Below are positions 3,006-32,671 of a stretch of 64,000 bases of DNA, piece by piece; position 1 is the stretch's first letter; each line of letters opens with the position of its first letter. This stretch comes from Chaetoceros tenuissimus. Lineage: Eukaryota > Bacillariophyta > Thalassiosirophyceae > Chaetocerotales > Chaetocerotaceae. The notes under the pieces were generated by a model. It searched no databases, was not told the origin of the DNA, and was given only the letters and a program-made list of their open reading frames with translations. The DNA is taken from positions 620,001 to 684,000 of the forward strand of contig BLLK01000045.1 of NCBI GenBank assembly GCA_021927905.1, given 5' to 3'. Made by a program: the position numbers and the translations under genes.

Positions 3006-6000
3006 ATGAGACTAGGACAGGCAATCACCGTCCTCACAGCTGTAGCAACATTTGGCCTCTCGGGGGTAAATGCAGAAGCTGACAAAGCGCAGTACCATAA
3101 TGAAGCTCTCTTCAAGTGGGTCAAATCATCAAATGGATTCATCCACCCTTCTCTAGAAATGCGCAGAGCTGACCCTTCCGATAGCACCTCCATGTTTGGA
3201 CTTTTTGCAACTGGGGATATCAAGGAAGATACTCAGCTATTCAATATTCCCTCTAAGCTAGTAATGAAGGATCCTACTGGAGCTGAAATTGAAGCTATGC
3301 AATGTGGCCTTGTGTATGAGCTTATTGACCACTTGAAAAAGAAGGATGAATCCGAATTCGCACCATATGTTAATTACCTTTTGGATACTCAGCCTGCTGG
3401 ACAATTGCCTTCTGCATGGTCCGATGCTGGTAGAGAACTTTTTATGCAAATTCTCGGACATGAAGGATTCACCATGGAAGAAGCAAAGGCTAGTCTTCCT
3501 GAGACTGGCGAACTTGACTTGGAAAATACCCTTGCTCCTGGATATCCAATTGGATGGATTGAGAACGAGTGGTATGGGCTTTGTGATGGACCAGAGGGAG
3601 AACTTGAAGAGTATGCTGCAATGATTGTGATTCAACGTGCATGGGATAACATTCTCATTCCACTCTATGACATGGTGAACCATCGTAATGGAAAGTGGCT
3701 CAACACCAAGAGTGACGAGTCTGGTGTCCACAGTGGAAAGGGTGTGAATGTTCTTGCATTGAGAGATATCAAGAAGGGAGAGCAGATCTATTCGACTTAC
3801 AACATGTGCGAAGATTGTGGAGGAAGAGTTAAAACTTATGGAACAGCGGAGATCCTTCGTGATTATGGGTTTGTAGAGGAATATCCACAAACTTGGATTT
3901 TCCAAGACATTGATGCTGATTTCCGTATTGATACGAAGGGTATTGATGACGATGGAGAGACAATTTATGAGATCACAGAATGGATCAATGGAGAGCCAGA
4001 TGAACAAGATCTTGTTGATCTAAAGGCGAAACTAGAAGAAGTGGAGTATGGAATCAAATTGCTAGGAACAAAGGAAGACCATCCTGATGTTTCTGAATAT
4101 GAGTATGCAATGATGGTAGAATACATGGAAGCTATGAAGACTGCATTCACTGTCGCATCGGAATGGGAAGACTCTGAAAAGATGTGTGTTGTTGATGGAT
4201 CTTGTAGTGTTACACTCGATCGTTACACAGATCTCGATGTTGAATATAATACCAGTATTGAGCCAGGGTACATGGATTCTTCATGTGATCTTCAACGTCA
4301 CTTTCACAAGTACGACGATGGAACATACCTCGATTTGGAGTCCTACAAGAGTCAATACCAAACCATTACATTCATGTACACAGCTGACAATAATGCAGCT
4401 TGTATGGATCTTGATGATACTGTCCAGATTTGTGATGACTACCGTCCTCAGTAAGTTCTACCACTTCTGTTAATCTTTTGTTGATCTTTGTAGGACATGC
4501 TAACACCTTCTTCATAGCTATCACGAGTATGCAGTTCATACCGCTGCAAGATTTTTGCCAAAGAATGGCCTGAAACGCGCTTTGTTTGTCGGTGGTGGGG
4601 ACTCTATGCTTCTTCATGAACTTCTCAAATATGAATCCATTGAACTCATCGTTGGTTTGGAACTTGATCAGAAAGTAACCAGAGGATCTTACAAGCATTT
4701 TGGAACTCAACCACATTTTGATGACGATAGAGTGGTAAGTTCATAGAATTTGATTATTCACTTTGTTTTTCATTTATGCTGAAGAAATTTCATCAACAAA
4801 GGAATGGTGGTTTGGAGATGCGACCAAGTCTCTCATGATGATTCCTAAGGAATATTTTGCTTCCTTTGATTTGGTACTTGTGGATTTGTCCGAGACTGTC
4901 ATGAGTTTTAAAGTCAGTGACGAATTGGATATCTTCGAAGCTTTGACTCTACTCGTGAAGCCAGATGGAATCTTTGTCAAGAATGAAGTTTACTTTGATG
5001 TTTTCAAGGAGATCTTCCCATATACAGCATTGATGCGCTGGTATGATGTACCTGTGGTATGTGCTCAGGTTATGGTAATGGGAAGTAGAACGATTGACTT
5101 CATGAAGCAAGAAATGATCGAACAGGATGCGGAGAAGCTTATTGTAAAGGACTTGAAGGACACCGAAGATGAGTATGAGATTGTGCACCATTACTCTCGT
5201 AACATGAACATTGTAGACAAATATTGTGGGCACAAAAGGGATGATTCGAAACAGACGGATAGTCCTGGTATTGCGATGCTTGTAGAAGTAGATGAAGAGG
5301 TAGATGTGGACATTTCTATTGAAGCTGTCGAAAAGGCCCTTCAAAAGAATTTTAACGTCATCAAATCCGTTAGATCTGATATGGATGAGTTCTCTGTGAT
5401 CACTACTATTCTTAAGGAGGGATACATCACTCTCAGACTTCTACCAAAGAAAAAGTATGCTGGATTTGACATTCATCTGTGGGGAAGCTTTACAAAACAC
5501 GAAACTGCGTTAAATGACATGCTTGGAGTTCTCAATGTATCAAAGTCAAATACTTCTTCTTATCGTCTTATTGCAGGAGGAATGTTTGGTGTAGACACCT
5601 GGAAGGAGGACAATGCGCTTCGTGGTCCACAATTCAGTGAAATTTGCGAAATCATGAAGGATTCTGTTCCTACTCCAGATAAGAAGCCCGGTCGAAGTGA
5701 TGCATCTGATGTTATGGATGGGATCAATACCGGTCTTAGTCTTCTTAATAAGAAGAATCTTAAAATTGCTGTTCTCGTAGGAAATGGTGAATCAGCTCCA
5801 TCATCGTACGAGAATGCCAGTGAAATTGTTGAAATTGGCTGTGAATCGATGCTTGGTTTCAATGAATTTGGAAAATTTGCAAAGGACAACCTTCAATCGT
5901 GCGAAACTCATCTTTTTAAGTTCTTGAAACAATCAGCACATGAAAAGAAATTTGATGCTATGGTAATCAGTGAATCAGCGGAGAAGATGACAAGCTCTGT

Positions 6001-6844
6001 GCTTTTGGCATTGCTTTCAACTCAAGGAACCAAATTTGTTGACTCAGTTTTCTCTAAAAATTCACTTATTTTTGCAGCATCTACTGACGGAAGTGGCAAT
6101 TGGAAGAAAAACTTCATGAAGCATTTTGCTGACGAAGTTTTCATTGATGAACCTGCCGCATTTGCTGAAGTTTTGTTGCAGAATACCTCCAAGGGTGGCC
6201 AAGTTGATCTTTACATTGTGAATGACGACGATGAGTACTTTGTACAGAAGCTAAATGCCAAGGTGACCGAGATCAATAATGATGAGACCAGCATTCAAGC
6301 TATTTTCAATGGAGTCTCAGGAGGAGCTTGGCTATTCCAAGATGAATTTGTACCTTCTACACCTTTCACTCCGGATGATTTCAATCAGATTCCTAGTCTT
6401 ACTCAGTGGGATCAGCAATCACCAATCGGACATCAAATCATCCTTCAATTCGAAGCCAATGGAGCGATTTCAAAGGAAGTTACACCAGAATCATTGAAGA
6501 AGGCCATCATCATGTCAATGGATATGATCGAGGAGAATAGTGTAACAACCGACTCGATTGAAGTTTACGCTGATCTTGGTGAAGGTCTACTCCTCACAAC
6601 CTTTTGGTCTCATGGAACGCTATCTGTCTTGTATGACGGCAAGACTCATATTGATGTGAACATCCTCACCTTGGATGAAAATGTCAAAGCGGGAGATATT
6701 CTTCAGAAAACAATTTCCAATACAATCAAACCGTTCAAGATCAGACTACGTGATGAGCAACCTAGAGGAAATGGCAGAACTGTAGCTTATCAGAGAGACT
6801 TGAATGATACCCCAAAGCCAAGATGGGCCCCAAAAACTTCTTAA
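3006..6844 (+). CDS. Secretory SET methyltransferase fused to aminopropyltransferase and AdoMetDC-like modules
   Basis: CDS joins 3006-4450, 4518-4734 and 4802-6844 (1,234 aa), with two 67-nt introns. Residues 1-23 form a signal peptide. Residues ~40-290 form a Rubisco-LSMT-type SET domain with PLYDMVNH, GEQIYSTYN and ILRDYGFV. About 480-690 form a spermidine-synthase-like Rossmann fold: YHEYAVH gate, FVGGGDS, GLELD, WFGDA, and LVDLSE where spermidine synthases have DSSDP. About 707-800 resemble a bacterial SpeH-type AdoMet decarboxylase (EGYITLRLLPKKKYAGFDIH), but the ESH cleavage-site context is not evident, so a pyruvoyl enzyme is doubtful. About 870-1000 (IAVLVGNGES, FDAMVISES) and 1060-1210 (EGLLLTTFW) look like a second, more degenerate pair. 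SET and first aminopropyltransferase assignments are firm; the rest is moderate. I infer an ER/Golgi enzyme modifying lysines and polyamines of silica-forming proteins. Confidence 0.8.
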
Positions 6845-7123
6845 TTAGATCATACCAAAACAACTAAAGTTTAGTATTCATTCATTCCTCAGCAGTCTAA
6901 TATTTTATTACTAAGTAAGGTACGACGTACGACATTAGTGGTGTCACTTGTTGGTCCAATGCAGTATCCATTTTGGTCTGGCCGTTGTAACTCTGATCAT
7001 TTCGTCGTCCGGACGACCACACAGAAAATCAAGAAGTAATTACCACTTTCATGTTACAGACTTATGCTACATTCTTTTGCGTTTGTTTATTTCGCAAATC
7101 AAAATTACTAGCTACCAGATAAA

Positions 7124-8368
7124 ATGAATTATCACTTATTTCTTTTTTGTGTTTTTTTCGCTTATATACAAACCGAAGCTTTTACTCTTACAAGCTTGAC
7201 TCAGACTCGATCAAATGGAATATTGCATGCCACCGAGAAAGATATTATCTCTGATCACAGTTCAGAGGTGAAATCTAAGCGACGTGCAAAAAGTGCAAAA
7301 TGGATAGCATGTTGTTCAACTAAGGACGTGACGAGAGCTATCGAAATGTATATTGAGGAAGGAGATCAAGTTGCAGAACTGGGCTCGCAACTTCGCGAGA
7401 GTTCTACTGCTATTTGCGAAAGGGTTGGCCCTGATGGGTATGCACATTTAGTAGATATTGAACGGAAATTCCCTAACGAGAAAAAAGGTCTACAAAGAAC
7501 GTCTGCCATGCGAAGGCTCGACGACGAGAAAGATTTCTACTCTGATCGGTCAACATTTACCGAAATGAAGAATTTTGATTTATGGCGAGAGGCACTTTTT
7601 CTGAAAAATATAGGAGAGACAAGGAGACAATACGATGCACTTGTAGTTGATGTTAGTATCGTTGTGGGTAATGATCTAGAGTTAACTTGCATATCTCTCA
7701 TAAAAGAGTTTCTAGCATTGAACGAATCGTCAGATAATGATGAGAATAAATGTAAGGTGGTGATTGCCAAGTCTGGATCGCTTCACGATCTAGCTAGGAG
7801 ATTGTTTCATGCCCAGAGATTATTTGATGGACACGAGTCTATAGACTATTCTTTTCTTCGCGGTTCTACTGCAATAATAGGAACTGTTGGAGTTGAAGAA
7901 TATAGACGTGCAATACCATTTGCTGTTCGTCCAAATGATGTCTGCATTGAAGTGGGTGCCCACATGGGAGTAACTACTAACTTAATTCATAGAGCTACGC
8001 TTGGGTCTGATGTTAGTGAAGAATCTGGGTGCATTGGGATTGATATTGGGCCACGCATTGTGAAAGCAGCTAGAAAGAAGTTCCCTGATGTAATCTTTGA
8101 AGTTGGTGATGCTTGGAAGGTGGGAGAATTGATGAGACAAAGACACAAGCATTTCCGCAACAATACAAATAATAGCATATACGATGCTGTCTTCGTCGAT
8201 GTTGGAGGCCTTTCCGGGGAAAACGGTTTACTTGAGGCTATTTCATTGATTTCTTCGATCTCAAACTCTCTTGAACCAAGATGCATTGTCATCAAAAGTC
8301 TTTGCATAAGGAGGCTTGCATCTAATCTAGTGCCGTTTTACGATGTATGGAAGAAAAAACACAACTAA
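7124..8368 (+). CDS. Secreted or plastid twin-Rossmann methyltransferase-like protein
   Basis: Single exon, 414 aa, with a hydrophobic N-terminal signal (LFLFCVFFAYIQTEAFTL) ending in an ASAF-like EAF motif, so plastid or secretory targeting is likely. Two AdoMet-binding-like segments can be read. The first is around residue 85 (GDQVAELGSQLRESSTAIC), followed by an acidic strand (HLVDIE) and DALVVDVS. The second is around residue 272 (DVCIEVGAHMGVTTNLI), followed by CIGIDIGPRIVKAARKKFP, EVGDAW and DAVFVDVGG. Both follow the motif I-II-IV order of class I methyltransferases, suggesting an internal duplication with the first copy more degenerate. Substrate unknown. The gene is convergent with chlorophyll synthase, 81 bp apart. 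Confidence 0.7.
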   Translation: MNYHLFLFCVFFAYIQTEAFTLTSLTQTRSNGILHATEKDIISDHSSEVKSKRRAKSAKWIACCSTKDVTRAIEMYIEEGDQVAELGSQLRESSTAICERVGPDGYAHLVDIERKFPNEKKGLQRTSAMRRLDDEKDFYSDRSTFTEMKNFDLWREALFLKNIGETRRQYDALVVDVSIVVGNDLELTCISLIKEFLALNESSDNDENKCKVVIAKSGSLHDLARRLFHAQRLFDGHESIDYSFLRGSTAIIGTVGVEEYRRAIPFAVRPNDVCIEVGAHMGVTTNLIHRATLGSDVSEESGCIGIDIGPRIVKAARKKFPDVIFEVGDAWKVGELMRQRHKHFRNNTNNSIYDAVFVDVGGLSGENGLLEAISLISSISNSLEPRCIVIKSLCIRRLASNLVPFYDVWKKKHN

Positions 8369-8449: not shown

Positions 8450-9649
8450 TCACCAAACATGGTTTCCAAGACACAAAGCAGAAAGTAATACACCAAGAAA
8501 ATCGATAGGAGATGAAGAGGCAACATACTTCACATCATTTTTTAGTGGATCTTCCAAAAGTACAGTCTTTTGAAGATAAATATGAGGCACGAGTAACAGC
8601 AGAATGGCAGTGGCATATGCTGCCTCATCTATTGAATAAAGATAAGAGGATACAAGTACTGGTGGAATGTTCTTTGAAGCAATAACGATGTAACTTGCAA
8701 TATCAAAACCATACATCAATGGGATGGACATTAATCCAAATTTTTTGTCACCTTCCACTGATTTGAAGTCATTCATTACTGCATTTGAGATTCCAGTAAT
8801 AGCCCATGTTAGCGGAATGAGTACATTGGTTAAAGTGAAGTCTTCAGAAAAAACTGAGAGACCACACCACCATGGAAATGATATATAACATACACCAATT
8901 GCCAGAGCTCCACTCCAACCATTTTGCTTTAGTTTGAGTGGGGGTGCGGAATAAATATATGATATGATATATCCAACAGTTGCAATCATGGTTACTGTGT
9001 ATGTCTCATGATTCGCCCAAGAATCGAGGAATGCTGCAATACCGAGTCCTCCAAACAACAGGAATGAAAGTTGTGAAAACACTTCTTGCGGTTTGATGGC
9101 TCCACTTGGAATAGGACGATCAGGCTCGTTAATAGCGTCAATGTCTTTATCATACCAATCGTTTATTGTTTGGGCAAAGCCTTCACTCATAGGACCTGCT
9201 AAGATGACAGTGAGCAAAGCTTTCATCGCATCAGTGGTACCGAGAACTATGTCACGATCATTCACATCAAATGGATTATATATCCAATGGTAGTTTCCAC
9301 TAGAAGCAGCTCCACACATGACAATTAAGCTCAAAGGTATCCATGTTATAGGTTTCATAAGTTGTAAATGAACCTTCCATTTGTCAAGATCATGTGCAGC
9401 ATTCTTAATACCAAGCACTTGTCTGATAGAGGCATCTTGAAAGGGTTCCTCATTTCTTGGACTAGTTCCTGTTTGCAAATTCAATTTAGTCAATTGTGAA
9501 GGCTTCGTATGTTTGAGGAGATATTGATCAGTTCCAAATAAATCTAGCGAGCTCGAAACAGGACTACTATTGGACATCGGGGCAAAAGCATTACTCCTCT
9601 GACTAGAAATAAGAAATACGAAAGAGATTGTTATTGTAGTCATAAACAT
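8450..9649 (-). CDS. CHLG: Chlorophyll synthase (chlorophyll a synthase, UbiA family), plastid-targeted
   Basis: Single exon, 399 aa. It prenylates chlorophyllide with phytyl/geranylgeranyl diphosphate in the thylakoid membrane, the last step of chlorophyll a synthesis. The N-terminus has a signal peptide ending at NAFAP, the ASAFAP-type motif used for import into complex red-lineage plastids. The UbiA diphosphate-binding motif NDWYDKDIDAINEPDRPIPS is the ChlG signature, and the second Asp-rich motif is DFKSVEGDKKFGL. About eight hydrophobic membrane segments follow in the usual ChlG spacing. Length matches the family plus a transit peptide. It reads away from the PDZ-DENN gene's 3' end and is tail-to-tail with the twin-Rossmann gene. 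Confidence 0.95.
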   Translation of the reverse strand: MFMTTITISFVFLISSQRSNAFAPMSNSSPVSSSLDLFGTDQYLLKHTKPSQLTKLNLQTGTSPRNEEPFQDASIRQVLGIKNAAHDLDKWKVHLQLMKPITWIPLSLIVMCGAASSGNYHWIYNPFDVNDRDIVLGTTDAMKALLTVILAGPMSEGFAQTINDWYDKDIDAINEPDRPIPSGAIKPQEVFSQLSFLLFGGLGIAAFLDSWANHETYTVTMIATVGYIISYIYSAPPLKLKQNGWSGALAIGVCYISFPWWCGLSVFSEDFTLTNVLIPLTWAITGISNAVMNDFKSVEGDKKFGLMSIPLMYGFDIASYIVIASKNIPPVLVSSYLYSIDEAAYATAILLLLVPHIYLQKTVLLEDPLKNDVKYVASSSPIDFLGVLLSALCLGNHVW

Positions 9650-9801
9650 TTTTTAACAGGGTTATCTTTTGTTATGAAAATTATGAGAGGTGAATTCATC
9701 ATCATGTATCATATTTTGATGGCGGCTTCTCAATAAATGGCCGTTACAAAACGGTTAAGAAAAATGTTCTATTTCCTTCTTTCTCTCCTTTCTCCTGGTT
9801 T

Positions 9802-30391: not shown

Positions 30392-30808
30392 GATTCTTCG
30401 TTCGAAGGGATGTAATGTTTCTTAATCAAAAAAATAATGTTTTTCAATGACGAAAACCACCTAACATATGGCATATGGACATAACAAGCGTACTAGTCTA
30501 ACTCGTATTATTGTAAAAAGGAAGAAGGAAGAAAGATGAGGCGAAAAAAGGGAGCGAAGAAGGGATCTCGTGTTGGCGCGGAAAAAAGATAGATACAGAT
30601 TCAACCTAGGTTAGGCCATTTATGATTGGTGAGTACTACTCGTAAGTGCGTACTACCACTCAGTCAGTGATACTGATTCAACGTGTTTTGCCTTCTGTTT
30701 CTCCACATCACATCAACACCATTTCTTTGTTCGACTTTTGTATCCACTTACTCAACTCTAGCTCATATATTGATACTCTCTTTCAGAACCTTTGAGTTAG
30801 TATAAAAT
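30392..30808. other. Divergent promoter region of the methyltransferase-like and phytoene desaturase genes
   Basis: The 417-bp spacer separates two divergent plastid-related genes. It contains pyrimidine-rich leader sequence before the phytoene desaturase ATG. I could not identify specific binding sites. Confidence 0.45.
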
Positions 30809-32671
30809 ATGAAAACTACTTCTTTCGCACTTGCTGGACTTGCTCTTCTTGCTTCCAAGGCTGCTGAGGCATTTGCACCTCATGCACGCGTTGGATCAGC
30901 AAATCTTCGTGCGGGATCTTCTAACCTTGTAATGAAGGATTTCCCAAAGCCAAATGTTGAAGATACTGACAACTATCGTTTTGCAGAAGCAATGTCTAGT
31001 TCTTTCACTTCTAGTCTTAAGGTACAAAATGAATCCCAAAAGAAGAAAGTAGCAATTATTGGAGGAGGACTCTCTGGACTTGCTTGTGCAAAGTACTTGA
31101 GTGATGCTGGACATGAACCAATTGTATATGAGGCGCGCGATGTACTTGGAGGAAAGGTTTCTGCATGGCAAGATGAGGATGGAGACTGGATTGAGACTGG
31201 ACTTCACATTTTCTTTGGAGCATACCCTAACATGATGAACATGTTTGCAGAACTCAACATTCATGACCGCCTCCAATGGAAGATCCATCAGATGATTTTC
31301 GCTATGCAAGAGCTTCCTGGTGAATTCACCACTTTTGACTTTATTCCTGGCATTCCAGCTCCATTCAACTTTGGGCTTGCAATTCTTATGAACCAAAAGA
31401 TGCTCACCCTTGCAGAAAAGATTCAGACTGCTCCTCCTCTTCTTCCTATGTTGATTGAAGGACAGAGCTTTATTGATGCACAAGATGAATTGTCAGTAAC
31501 AGATTTCATGCGAAAATATGGTATGCCAGAGCGTATCAACGAAGAGGTTTTCATTGCTATGGCAAAGGCGCTTGATTTTATCGATCCAGATAAGCTTAGT
31601 ATGACTGTTGTTTTGACTGCTATGAACCGTTTCTTGAACGAGAGTAATGGATTGCAGATGGCGTTTTTGGATGGAAACCAGCCAGACCGTCTTTGTGAAC
31701 CAATGAAGCAGCATATTGAGGCTCGTGGAGGAAAAGTTATCACTAATGCACCAATTGAAAAGATTGTAACCAAGGAAGATGGAACCATTGATCACCTTCT
31801 TATGCGTTCTGGTGAGAAGATCACAGCAGATGAATATATTTCTGCTATGCCAGTAGATATTGTGAAGCGTATGACCCCAAAGAACTGGCAGAATATGCCA
31901 TACTTCCGCCAGTTTGACGAGTTGGAGGGAATCCCTGTTATCAACCTTCACATGTGGTTTGACAAGAAGCTTAAGGCTGTTGACCACCTTTGTTTCAGTC
32001 GCTCTCCACTTCTTTCCGTTTACGCAGATATGTCTGTAACATGTAAGGAATATGAAGATCCTGATAAGTCTATGCTTGAGCTTGTATTTGCACCATGCTC
32101 CCCAATTGCTGGAGGAAACACAAACTGGATTGCTAAGTCTGATGAGGAGATTATTGATGCTACTATGGGAGAGTTGGCTCGTCTTTTCCCAACCGAGATT
32201 GCAAATGATGAAAAGTGGCCTGCAACCAAATCTCAGGGTCCAAATGGAACTGCAAAGTTGATTAAGTACTCCGTTGTTAAGGTACCAAGAAGTGTTTACG
32301 CTGCTATCCCTGGACGTAACAAGTACCGTCCTAGTCAAACAACACCAATCCCTCACTTTACAATGGCTGGAGACTGGACTTCCCAAAAATTCCTTGGAAG
32401 TATGGAAGGAGCAGTTTTGGGAGGAAAGCTTGCTGCTGAAGTTGTTGCAAACCGTGCACTTGGAAATGCTGATAAGCCAATCAAGGAAATTCAACAAGAC
32501 ATTATGGAGAAGGCTGCTGCTCATGTTGCAGCTGAGCCAATTGGAATCAAGGGAGATGGAGCAATCGCTTTTGGAGCTGGAGCAACCCTTGGAAAGCAAA
32601 ATGGTGACTTGTTGAAGCAATGTGATCCTATTCAGTTCGCATCTTCTGAAGAATATGCTGCTGCAGCTTAA
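30809..32671 (+). CDS. PDS: Phytoene desaturase, plastid-targeted
   Basis: Single exon, 620 aa. It desaturates phytoene to zeta-carotene using FAD and plastoquinone on plastid membranes, an early step toward fucoxanthin and other carotenoids. Residues 1-22 are a signal peptide ending AEAFAP, the ASAFAP-type motif for complex plastid import. FAD-binding: VAIIGGGLSGLACAKYLSDA. PDS-specific segments include GGKVSAWQDEDGDWIETGLH, FFGAYPNM, EVFIAMAKALDFIDPDKLSM, and the C-terminal FTMAGDWTSQKFLGSMEGA. Codon use is strongly biased toward a preferred set (e.g. GGA, CTT), consistent with high expression. Its stop is 50 bp from the convergent TMEM260-like gene. Length is normal. Confidence 0.97.
   Translation: MKTTSFALAGLALLASKAAEAFAPHARVGSANLRAGSSNLVMKDFPKPNVEDTDNYRFAEAMSSSFTSSLKVQNESQKKKVAIIGGGLSGLACAKYLSDAGHEPIVYEARDVLGGKVSAWQDEDGDWIETGLHIFFGAYPNMMNMFAELNIHDRLQWKIHQMIFAMQELPGEFTTFDFIPGIPAPFNFGLAILMNQKMLTLAEKIQTAPPLLPMLIEGQSFIDAQDELSVTDFMRKYGMPERINEEVFIAMAKALDFIDPDKLSMTVVLTAMNRFLNESNGLQMAFLDGNQPDRLCEPMKQHIEARGGKVITNAPIEKIVTKEDGTIDHLLMRSGEKITADEYISAMPVDIVKRMTPKNWQNMPYFRQFDELEGIPVINLHMWFDKKLKAVDHLCFSRSPLLSVYADMSVTCKEYEDPDKSMLELVFAPCSPIAGGNTNWIAKSDEEIIDATMGELARLFPTEIANDEKWPATKSQGPNGTAKLIKYSVVKVPRSVYAAIPGRNKYRPSQTTPIPHFTMAGDWTSQKFLGSMEGAVLGGKLAAEVVANRALGNADKPIKEIQQDIMEKAAAHVAAEPIGIKGDGAIAFGAGATLGKQNGDLLKQCDPIQFASSEEYAAAA

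Follow-up and report, generated by a model that had tools for sequence, protein, structure and literature searches.

A gene joining SET and aminopropyltransferase domains to an AdoMetDC-like module without its catalytic residues: a probable further example of a known diatom fusion class

What can a protein do that joins a SET methyltransferase domain, an aminopropyltransferase (APT) and a sequence resembling S-adenosylmethionine decarboxylase (AdoMetDC) in one chain, and which of these parts are still catalytic? The question is raised by a gene at positions 3006-6844 of a 64,000-nucleotide stretch of contig BLLK01000045.1, the whole of which is called the window here. An earlier note on this DNA had read the gene as a novel three-way fusion and as a single-chain modification machine. 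Our analysis points, with moderate confidence, to a member of a known diatom class of SET/APT/AdoMetDC-like fusions, in which SET and APT would be active, the AdoMetDC part would be a pseudoenzyme and the substrates would be long-chain polyamines (LCPAs) or silaffins. The loss of AdoMetDC catalysis is the most informative feature of the gene; because the decarboxylase is apparently dead and the main SET and APT motifs are kept, it separates the making of polyamines in place from their transfer and methylation. Such fusions are thought to help make the glass cell walls of diatoms, and the gene makes a tractable single-gene system for testing how silaffins or silica-forming polyamines are modified.

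The gene is real, intact-looking and well delimited, and it consists of three exons and two introns:

3006..4450, forward strand: exon 1, residues 1-481 and two bases of codon 482, an open frame with coding-like codon use that holds the signal-peptide-like start, the SET domain, a linker and the N-terminal edge of the APT alignment (residues 446-481)
4451..4517, forward strand: intron 1, 67 bp, GTAAGT...CATAG
4518..4734, forward strand: exon 2, which holds the YHEYAVH, GGGD and ELD motifs
4735..4801, forward strand: intron 2, 67 bp, GTAAGT...CAAAG
4802..6844, forward strand: exon 3, residues 555-1234 and the stop, comprising the rest of the APT, the AdoMetDC-like module and the C-terminal half

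The spliced forward-strand frame comprises 1234 codons and a stop, with 0 internal stops, and both introns are of the GT-AG type. The single gene at 3006-6844 was borne out as first described, with its start, stop, coordinates, two short introns and stop-free joined frame of 1234 amino acids; the introns had also been said to keep frame, and this holds solely after splicing, since 67 bp is not divisible by 3. Under a codon-use model trained on the other long frames in the window, the frame scored 0.242, 0.158 and 0.186 bits per codon in exons 1, 2 and 3, and the other two forward frames, with which it was compared, were negative in every exon. Similarity to spermidine synthase, seen with several solved chains, is unbroken across residues 446-613 and spans the junctions at 481/482 and 554/555, which gives independent support for the splicing. 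Exon 1 alone gave no APT match in Pfam or in the PDB sequence search, and the APT part of exon 3 alone (135 amino acids) stayed below threshold in Pfam, with 14.1 bits against a cutoff of 22.9; joining is thus needed for the APT domain to be recognised. One exon holds both the SET domain (64-266) and the opening 36 residues of the APT alignment (446-481).

Along the joined protein, the following features were delimited:

3006..3074, forward strand: signal-peptide-like N-terminus, MRLGQAITVLTAVATFGLSGVNA up to the cleavage point and EA after it, judged from hydropathy and, by eye, from a VNA cleavage motif
3195..3803, forward strand: SET domain, residues 64-266, Pfam PF00856, E 4.9e-8, above cutoff, followed by LRDYGFV
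4341..5209, forward strand: APT domain, residues ~446-690 with an approximate C-terminal limit, interrupted by both introns and matched by PF01564, PRK00811 and PDB entries
5258..5554, forward strand: AdoMetDC-like module, residues ~707-805, recognised by a SpeH profile, hhalign and fold matches, with its catalytic residues lost
5723..6394, forward strand: possible decayed second APT-like copy, residues ~862-1085, with GNGES where APT has GGGDS, from hhalign and a SpeE profile
6395..6841, forward strand: C-terminal part, residues ~1086-1234, holding the end of a stretch (870-1210) to which the earlier note had assigned AdoMetDC-like sequence

The order of SET, APT and AdoMetDC-like module behind a signal-peptide-like N-terminus is supported by the domain searches and, at the N-terminus, by the VNA site and by hydropathy, which reaches a maximum of 2.07 in 11-residue windows. 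On these grounds, the fusion protein would enter the endoplasmic reticulum (ER) via a signal peptide.

The claim of an intact SET domain held up. PF00856 scored 33.8 bits in the whole protein against a cutoff of 22.4, and 36.0 bits (E 9.8e-9) on exon 1 alone. The NH pair at 225-226, YSTYN at 262-266, which contains the C-terminal Tyr motif, and LRDYGFV, which contains the YGF motif, are all retained, and we take NH, the C-terminal Tyr and YGF to be SET motifs of the SETD3/LSMT type. SETD3 was also the nearest solved SET relative, at a non-significant E of 0.042, and a LIPLxDMxNHxNG stretch is common to both.

The spermidine-synthase-like region proposed downstream of the SET domain was likewise confirmed in sequence, with PF01564 (Spermine_synth) far above its cutoff in the joined protein (residues 482-615, 65.5 bits against 22.9, E 5.7e-18) and the YHEYAVH, GGGD, ELD and GDA positions kept. 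PRK00811 matched residues 444-616 (E 8.8e-23, under its equivalog cutoff), and the best PDB spermidine synthase match covered residues 448-640 (E 3.4e-12). The NCBIfam APT models matched under their own cutoffs, as expected of a divergent family member. Aligned with solved spermidine synthases and with four SpeE sequences, of which two are bacterial, one is archaeal and one comes from a phage, the domain retains Q452 (the Q of YQ), H484-E485, GGGD at 507-510, E530 and D532 of the ExD motif, D560 of GDA and the catalytic D582, which opens the DSSDP-type motif. These motifs presumably act as in the family at large, in binding decarboxylated S-adenosylmethionine (dcAdoMet) and as catalytic Asp, so that dcAdoMet binding by this APT is plausible. 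The fourth position of the DSSDP-type motif is Glu585; it was considered as a mark of decay and dropped, given that Priestia SpeE, one of the 4 references, has the same residue.

The AdoMetDC-like module is weak by sequence. A profile of 6 SpeH sequences scored residues 701-812 at 15.0 bits, a value that 0 of 2000 shuffles reached (the highest of them scored 7.7), and under this profile the 12 top-scoring windows of 112 residues in the whole protein all overlap the module. In hhalign against SpeH, 0 of 100 shuffles scored as high, with an hhalign probability of just 12%. When the module was folded alone, with no alignment, the PDB fold matches of the model at ranks 1-9 were chains of human spermine synthase, Thermotoga maritima and human AdoMetDC, and Trypanosoma brucei AdoMetDC/prozyme (E 1.8e-3 to 3.2e-2). 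The four best fold matches of a larger AlphaFold model (residues 690-1234), used solely beside those of the smaller model, were spermine synthase and T. maritima AdoMetDC. In the profile alignment, the pyruvoyl-forming Ser, the catalytic His and the catalytic Cys of class 1b SpeH are none of them retained: T. maritima Ser63 corresponds to Gly761, His68 to Arg766 and Cys83 to Trp781. For His68 and Cys83, we assume the catalytic roles usually given to them. With all three residues replaced, the module is expected to be a pseudoenzyme, without self-processing or decarboxylation, that should supply no decarboxylase step, and an active AdoMetDC was rejected. Ser63 is named as the processing residue in the title of PDB 1tmi.

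Several results weigh against the reading that we favour. Pfam AdoMet_dc gave the piece 708-825 only 15.1 bits against a cutoff of 25 (E 0.031) and was not listed for the whole protein, NCBIfam TIGR03330 gave 14.7 bits against a cutoff of 75.65, and phmmer of the module against the PDB found no AdoMetDC. Both models were of low confidence, with a mean pLDDT of 33.4 for residues 690-1234 and 59.7 for the module; 0 of the 1275 fold matches of the module reached E 0.001, unrelated folds began at rank 10 (E 3.4e-2), and those of the larger model turned unrelated from rank 5. With such E values and unrelated folds so near the top, the fold evidence is supportive and short of decisive. The APT lacks two features that 4 of 4 reference SpeE have, a GP behind the catalytic Asp motif and, further on, the Tyr of a PxY motif, which makes an unusual amine acceptor or an inactive APT possible; the acceptor may differ from ordinary putrescine. 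No relative of the fusion protein was found in viral contigs with a query of 792 of the 1234 residues, nor in genome contigs with a 193-residue query, where 0 of 23 pattern matches were confirmed. The enzymatic roles and substrates proposed here are, finally, predictions from homology.

Further downstream, the SpeH-like sequence that the earlier note had extended into the 870-1210 stretch found no support, while that at ~707-805 was borne out in part (0/2000 shuffles and the fold matches, with sub-threshold scores in Pfam and NCBIfam). Residues 1081-1215 scored at shuffle level against the SpeH profile (-1.0 bits; 519 of 2000 shuffles did at least as well) and in hhalign against SpeH (76 of 100 shuffles as good), the AdoMetDC-like module aligned to them no better than to shuffles (29 of 100 as good), and the PDB sequence search returned just two proteasome-subunit sequences (E 1.3). 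A second AdoMetDC copy near the C-terminus was rejected on these profile, hhalign and PDB sequence results. A possible Ser-His pair at 1157-1158 was seen by eye and is not relied on. Residues ~862-1085 are possibly a decayed second APT copy: the SpeE profile score of residues 856-1085 was reached by 7 of 1000 shuffles (1 of 100 in hhalign), and hhalign of the front against the back half placed residues 862-899 on 488-529 over 38 columns at 37% identity, above all shuffles (0 of 100 reach it) at a probability of 4%. Here VGNGES lies under VGGGDS and IVEI under IVGL, a faint likeness to the APT core. Five such comparisons made up the hhalign set. Pfam also gave weak matches, among them DUF3006 and CHRDL_1_2_C, which were put down to chance.

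How the protein might work can be sketched from these parts. Gene structure, SET and APT homology, the retained dcAdoMet-binding and catalytic-Asp positions and the lost AdoMetDC residues are directly supported; we infer secretion, activity, substrates and the role of the pseudo-module. The signal peptide would route the protein to the ER, as for silaffin precursors, which bear ER signal peptides according to the text of PMC5501833. The APT would take dcAdoMet made elsewhere and aminopropylate an acceptor amine, probably an LCPA or a silaffin lysine, and the SET domain would use AdoMet to N-methylate the acceptor or the product. The pseudo-AdoMetDC may serve dimerisation or substrate binding; precedents are the trypanosome prozyme and, in human spermine synthase, the N-terminal domain. 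A role in modifying LCPAs or silaffins is the hypothesis published for such fusions, and it is by analogy with them that it would apply here.

A rather unlikely alternative makes SET the sole catalytic domain, in a secreted protein or polyamine methyltransferase whose APT- and AdoMetDC-derived pseudo-domains would bind polyamine. The dead AdoMetDC and the divergent acceptor region of the APT, without GP and the PxY Tyr, fit such a protein, but the APT keeps its main dcAdoMet-binding motifs and its first catalytic Asp, and Glu585, shared with Priestia SpeE, is no sign of decay.

A narrower version of the active-SET, active-APT reading, which we regard as a long shot, is a secreted protein-lysine aminopropyltransferase-methylase: the APT would act on silaffin lysines and not on free polyamines, SET would methylate what the APT produces, and the dead AdoMetDC and the decayed APT copy would form a substrate cradle or dimer interface. 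If this were true, the gene would encode an enzyme of silaffin polyamine modification. We know of no enzyme so far identified for that step.

The biosilica function is drawn from the fusion class and from a host that is presumably a diatom, so a function unconnected with silica must also be considered, in which the secretory protein would modify polyamines or proteins to some other end; we judge it improbable. The host is indicated by neighbouring genes of the window:

7112-8365, forward strand: a 418-codon frame just downstream of the fusion gene, with a hydrophobic plastid-presequence-like start and two halves that look methyltransferase-like by eye; neither Pfam nor NCBIfam gave a match
8453-9652, reverse strand: chlorophyll synthase, which passes the cutoff of the subfamily model TIGR01476 and stays under that of the ChlG equivalog
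30806-32668, forward strand: 15-cis-phytoene desaturase, a plastid-pathway gene, TIGR02731 691.6 bits, above cutoff

The chlorophyll synthase frame opens with a hydrophobic stretch and NAFAP, which we take to be a plastid presequence of the kind seen in diatoms and other algae with red secondary plastids. Together, chlorophyll synthase and phytoene desaturase point to a photosynthetic host, presumably a diatom, and the start of the chlorophyll synthase to a complex plastid; Pfam on the long frames also identified kinesin, CSTF2 and other eukaryotic genes, and the fusion gene itself has introns. The window has 34 other long frames, and in the 20 covered with Pfam no silica-related gene was named, which favours a role outside silica, if weakly, silaffin-like proteins being of low complexity. 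Against such a role, AdoMetDC-APT fusions have been suggested to be unique to diatoms and to make LCPAs (relayed in PMC12533330), and the same source, in text that mentions no SET domain, describes one AdoMetDC-APT fusion as up with added aluminium and tied to increased silicification.

Least probable is the complete single-chain machine of the earlier note, in which dcAdoMet would be made on the spot by the AdoMetDC part and consumed by the APT, and SET would methylate: one chain does hold three recognisable folds, and reviews (PMC6356823 among them) describe some diatom fusions as potentially so working, but the self-cleavage Ser, His and Cys are replaced by Gly761, Arg766 and Trp781, so that the decarboxylase residues are all lost, and the second AdoMetDC-like stretch is without sequence support.

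A 388-residue query matched 25 plasmid and 3 phage records, with no match spanning 80% of it; identity was at most 31.1% among the matches listed (20 plasmid and 3 phage), and those with an annotation under the match were speE or spermidine synthase. In the record of Microcystis phage MaAM05 (L001 571-1487, L009 621-2089), two speH genes, speE and the agmatinase gene speB are annotated one after another, which amounts to a polyamine module, and the second SpeH is divergent with ESH kept. The SpeH of Bacillus phage vB_BcoS-136 (L003 52-927) is embedded in a longer protein that extends beyond it at both the N- and the C-terminal end, whereas T. maritima SpeH is compact.

Set beside known systems, the SET domain resembles the SETD3/Rubisco LSMT type, with LIPLYDMVNHRNG here and LIPLWDMCNHTNG in SETD3, but Pfam listed no substrate-binding domain here and the SETD3 match was non-significant, as given above. 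A SET domain is also shared with the diatom SET proteins of Nemoto et al. 2020 (Mar Biotechnol 22:551), compared here through citing text, in which diatom-specific SET methyltransferases are proposed regulators of wall proteins and LCPAs (PMC11151724, PMC11554505).

Human spermine synthase (PDB 3c6k), likewise an APT, was the best fold match of both models, at chain level. Its AdoMetDC-like domain is N-terminal, whereas here the module lies after the APT in a chain that also has a SET domain and a signal-peptide-like start. Its N-terminal domain acts in dimerisation, according to the text of PMC11203672. The trypanosome prozyme has an AdoMetDC fold without key catalytic residues, as stated in PMC5201418, and its AdoMetDC/prozyme complex chains were among our fold matches; the catalytic residues are lost in both, but prozyme, which belongs to the eukaryotic AdoMetDC type, is a protein on its own and activates an AdoMetDC.

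The closest counterpart is the diatom fusion class itself. As relayed in PMC12029483, citing Michael 2011 (FEBS Lett 585:2627), diatom genomes encode AdoMetDC-APT fusions, some with a histone-methyltransferase domain, and the claim that the three-way fusion is new therefore fails, the class having been in print since 2011. Available text elsewhere describes several such fusions per diatom genome with uncharacterised functions (PMC6356823, a 2018 review), three SAMDC-APT fusions in Phaeodactylum tricornutum (PMC10968388) and 32 APT-domain fusion proteins in Nitzschia inconspicua, for which further study is called for (PMC12803844, 2025); in the text covered, no activity or substrate is reported for diatom APT fusions. 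Among open-access texts, none joined aminopropyltransferase, SET domain and diatom, and those on AdoMetDC, silaffin or APT gave no mention of a Tudor domain, which reflects open-access coverage and not absence from print. The class shares APT, AdoMetDC-like and protein-methyltransferase domains with the present gene, the likeness being drawn through citing texts and not by exact domain order; the methyltransferase domain of the class is presumably SET, and the possible decayed second APT-like copy is not mentioned in the class descriptions that these texts give. Both the architecture and the biosilica hypothesis of such fusions have been known since 2011, and the gene is probably a further example. 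The 2011 account is said to describe signal-peptide-bearing fusions and Tudor domain variants, and reportedly also catalytically dead AdoMetDC versions, for which a role in methylating polyamines and passing them on to silaffins was proposed. Such dead versions would fit the present gene closely.

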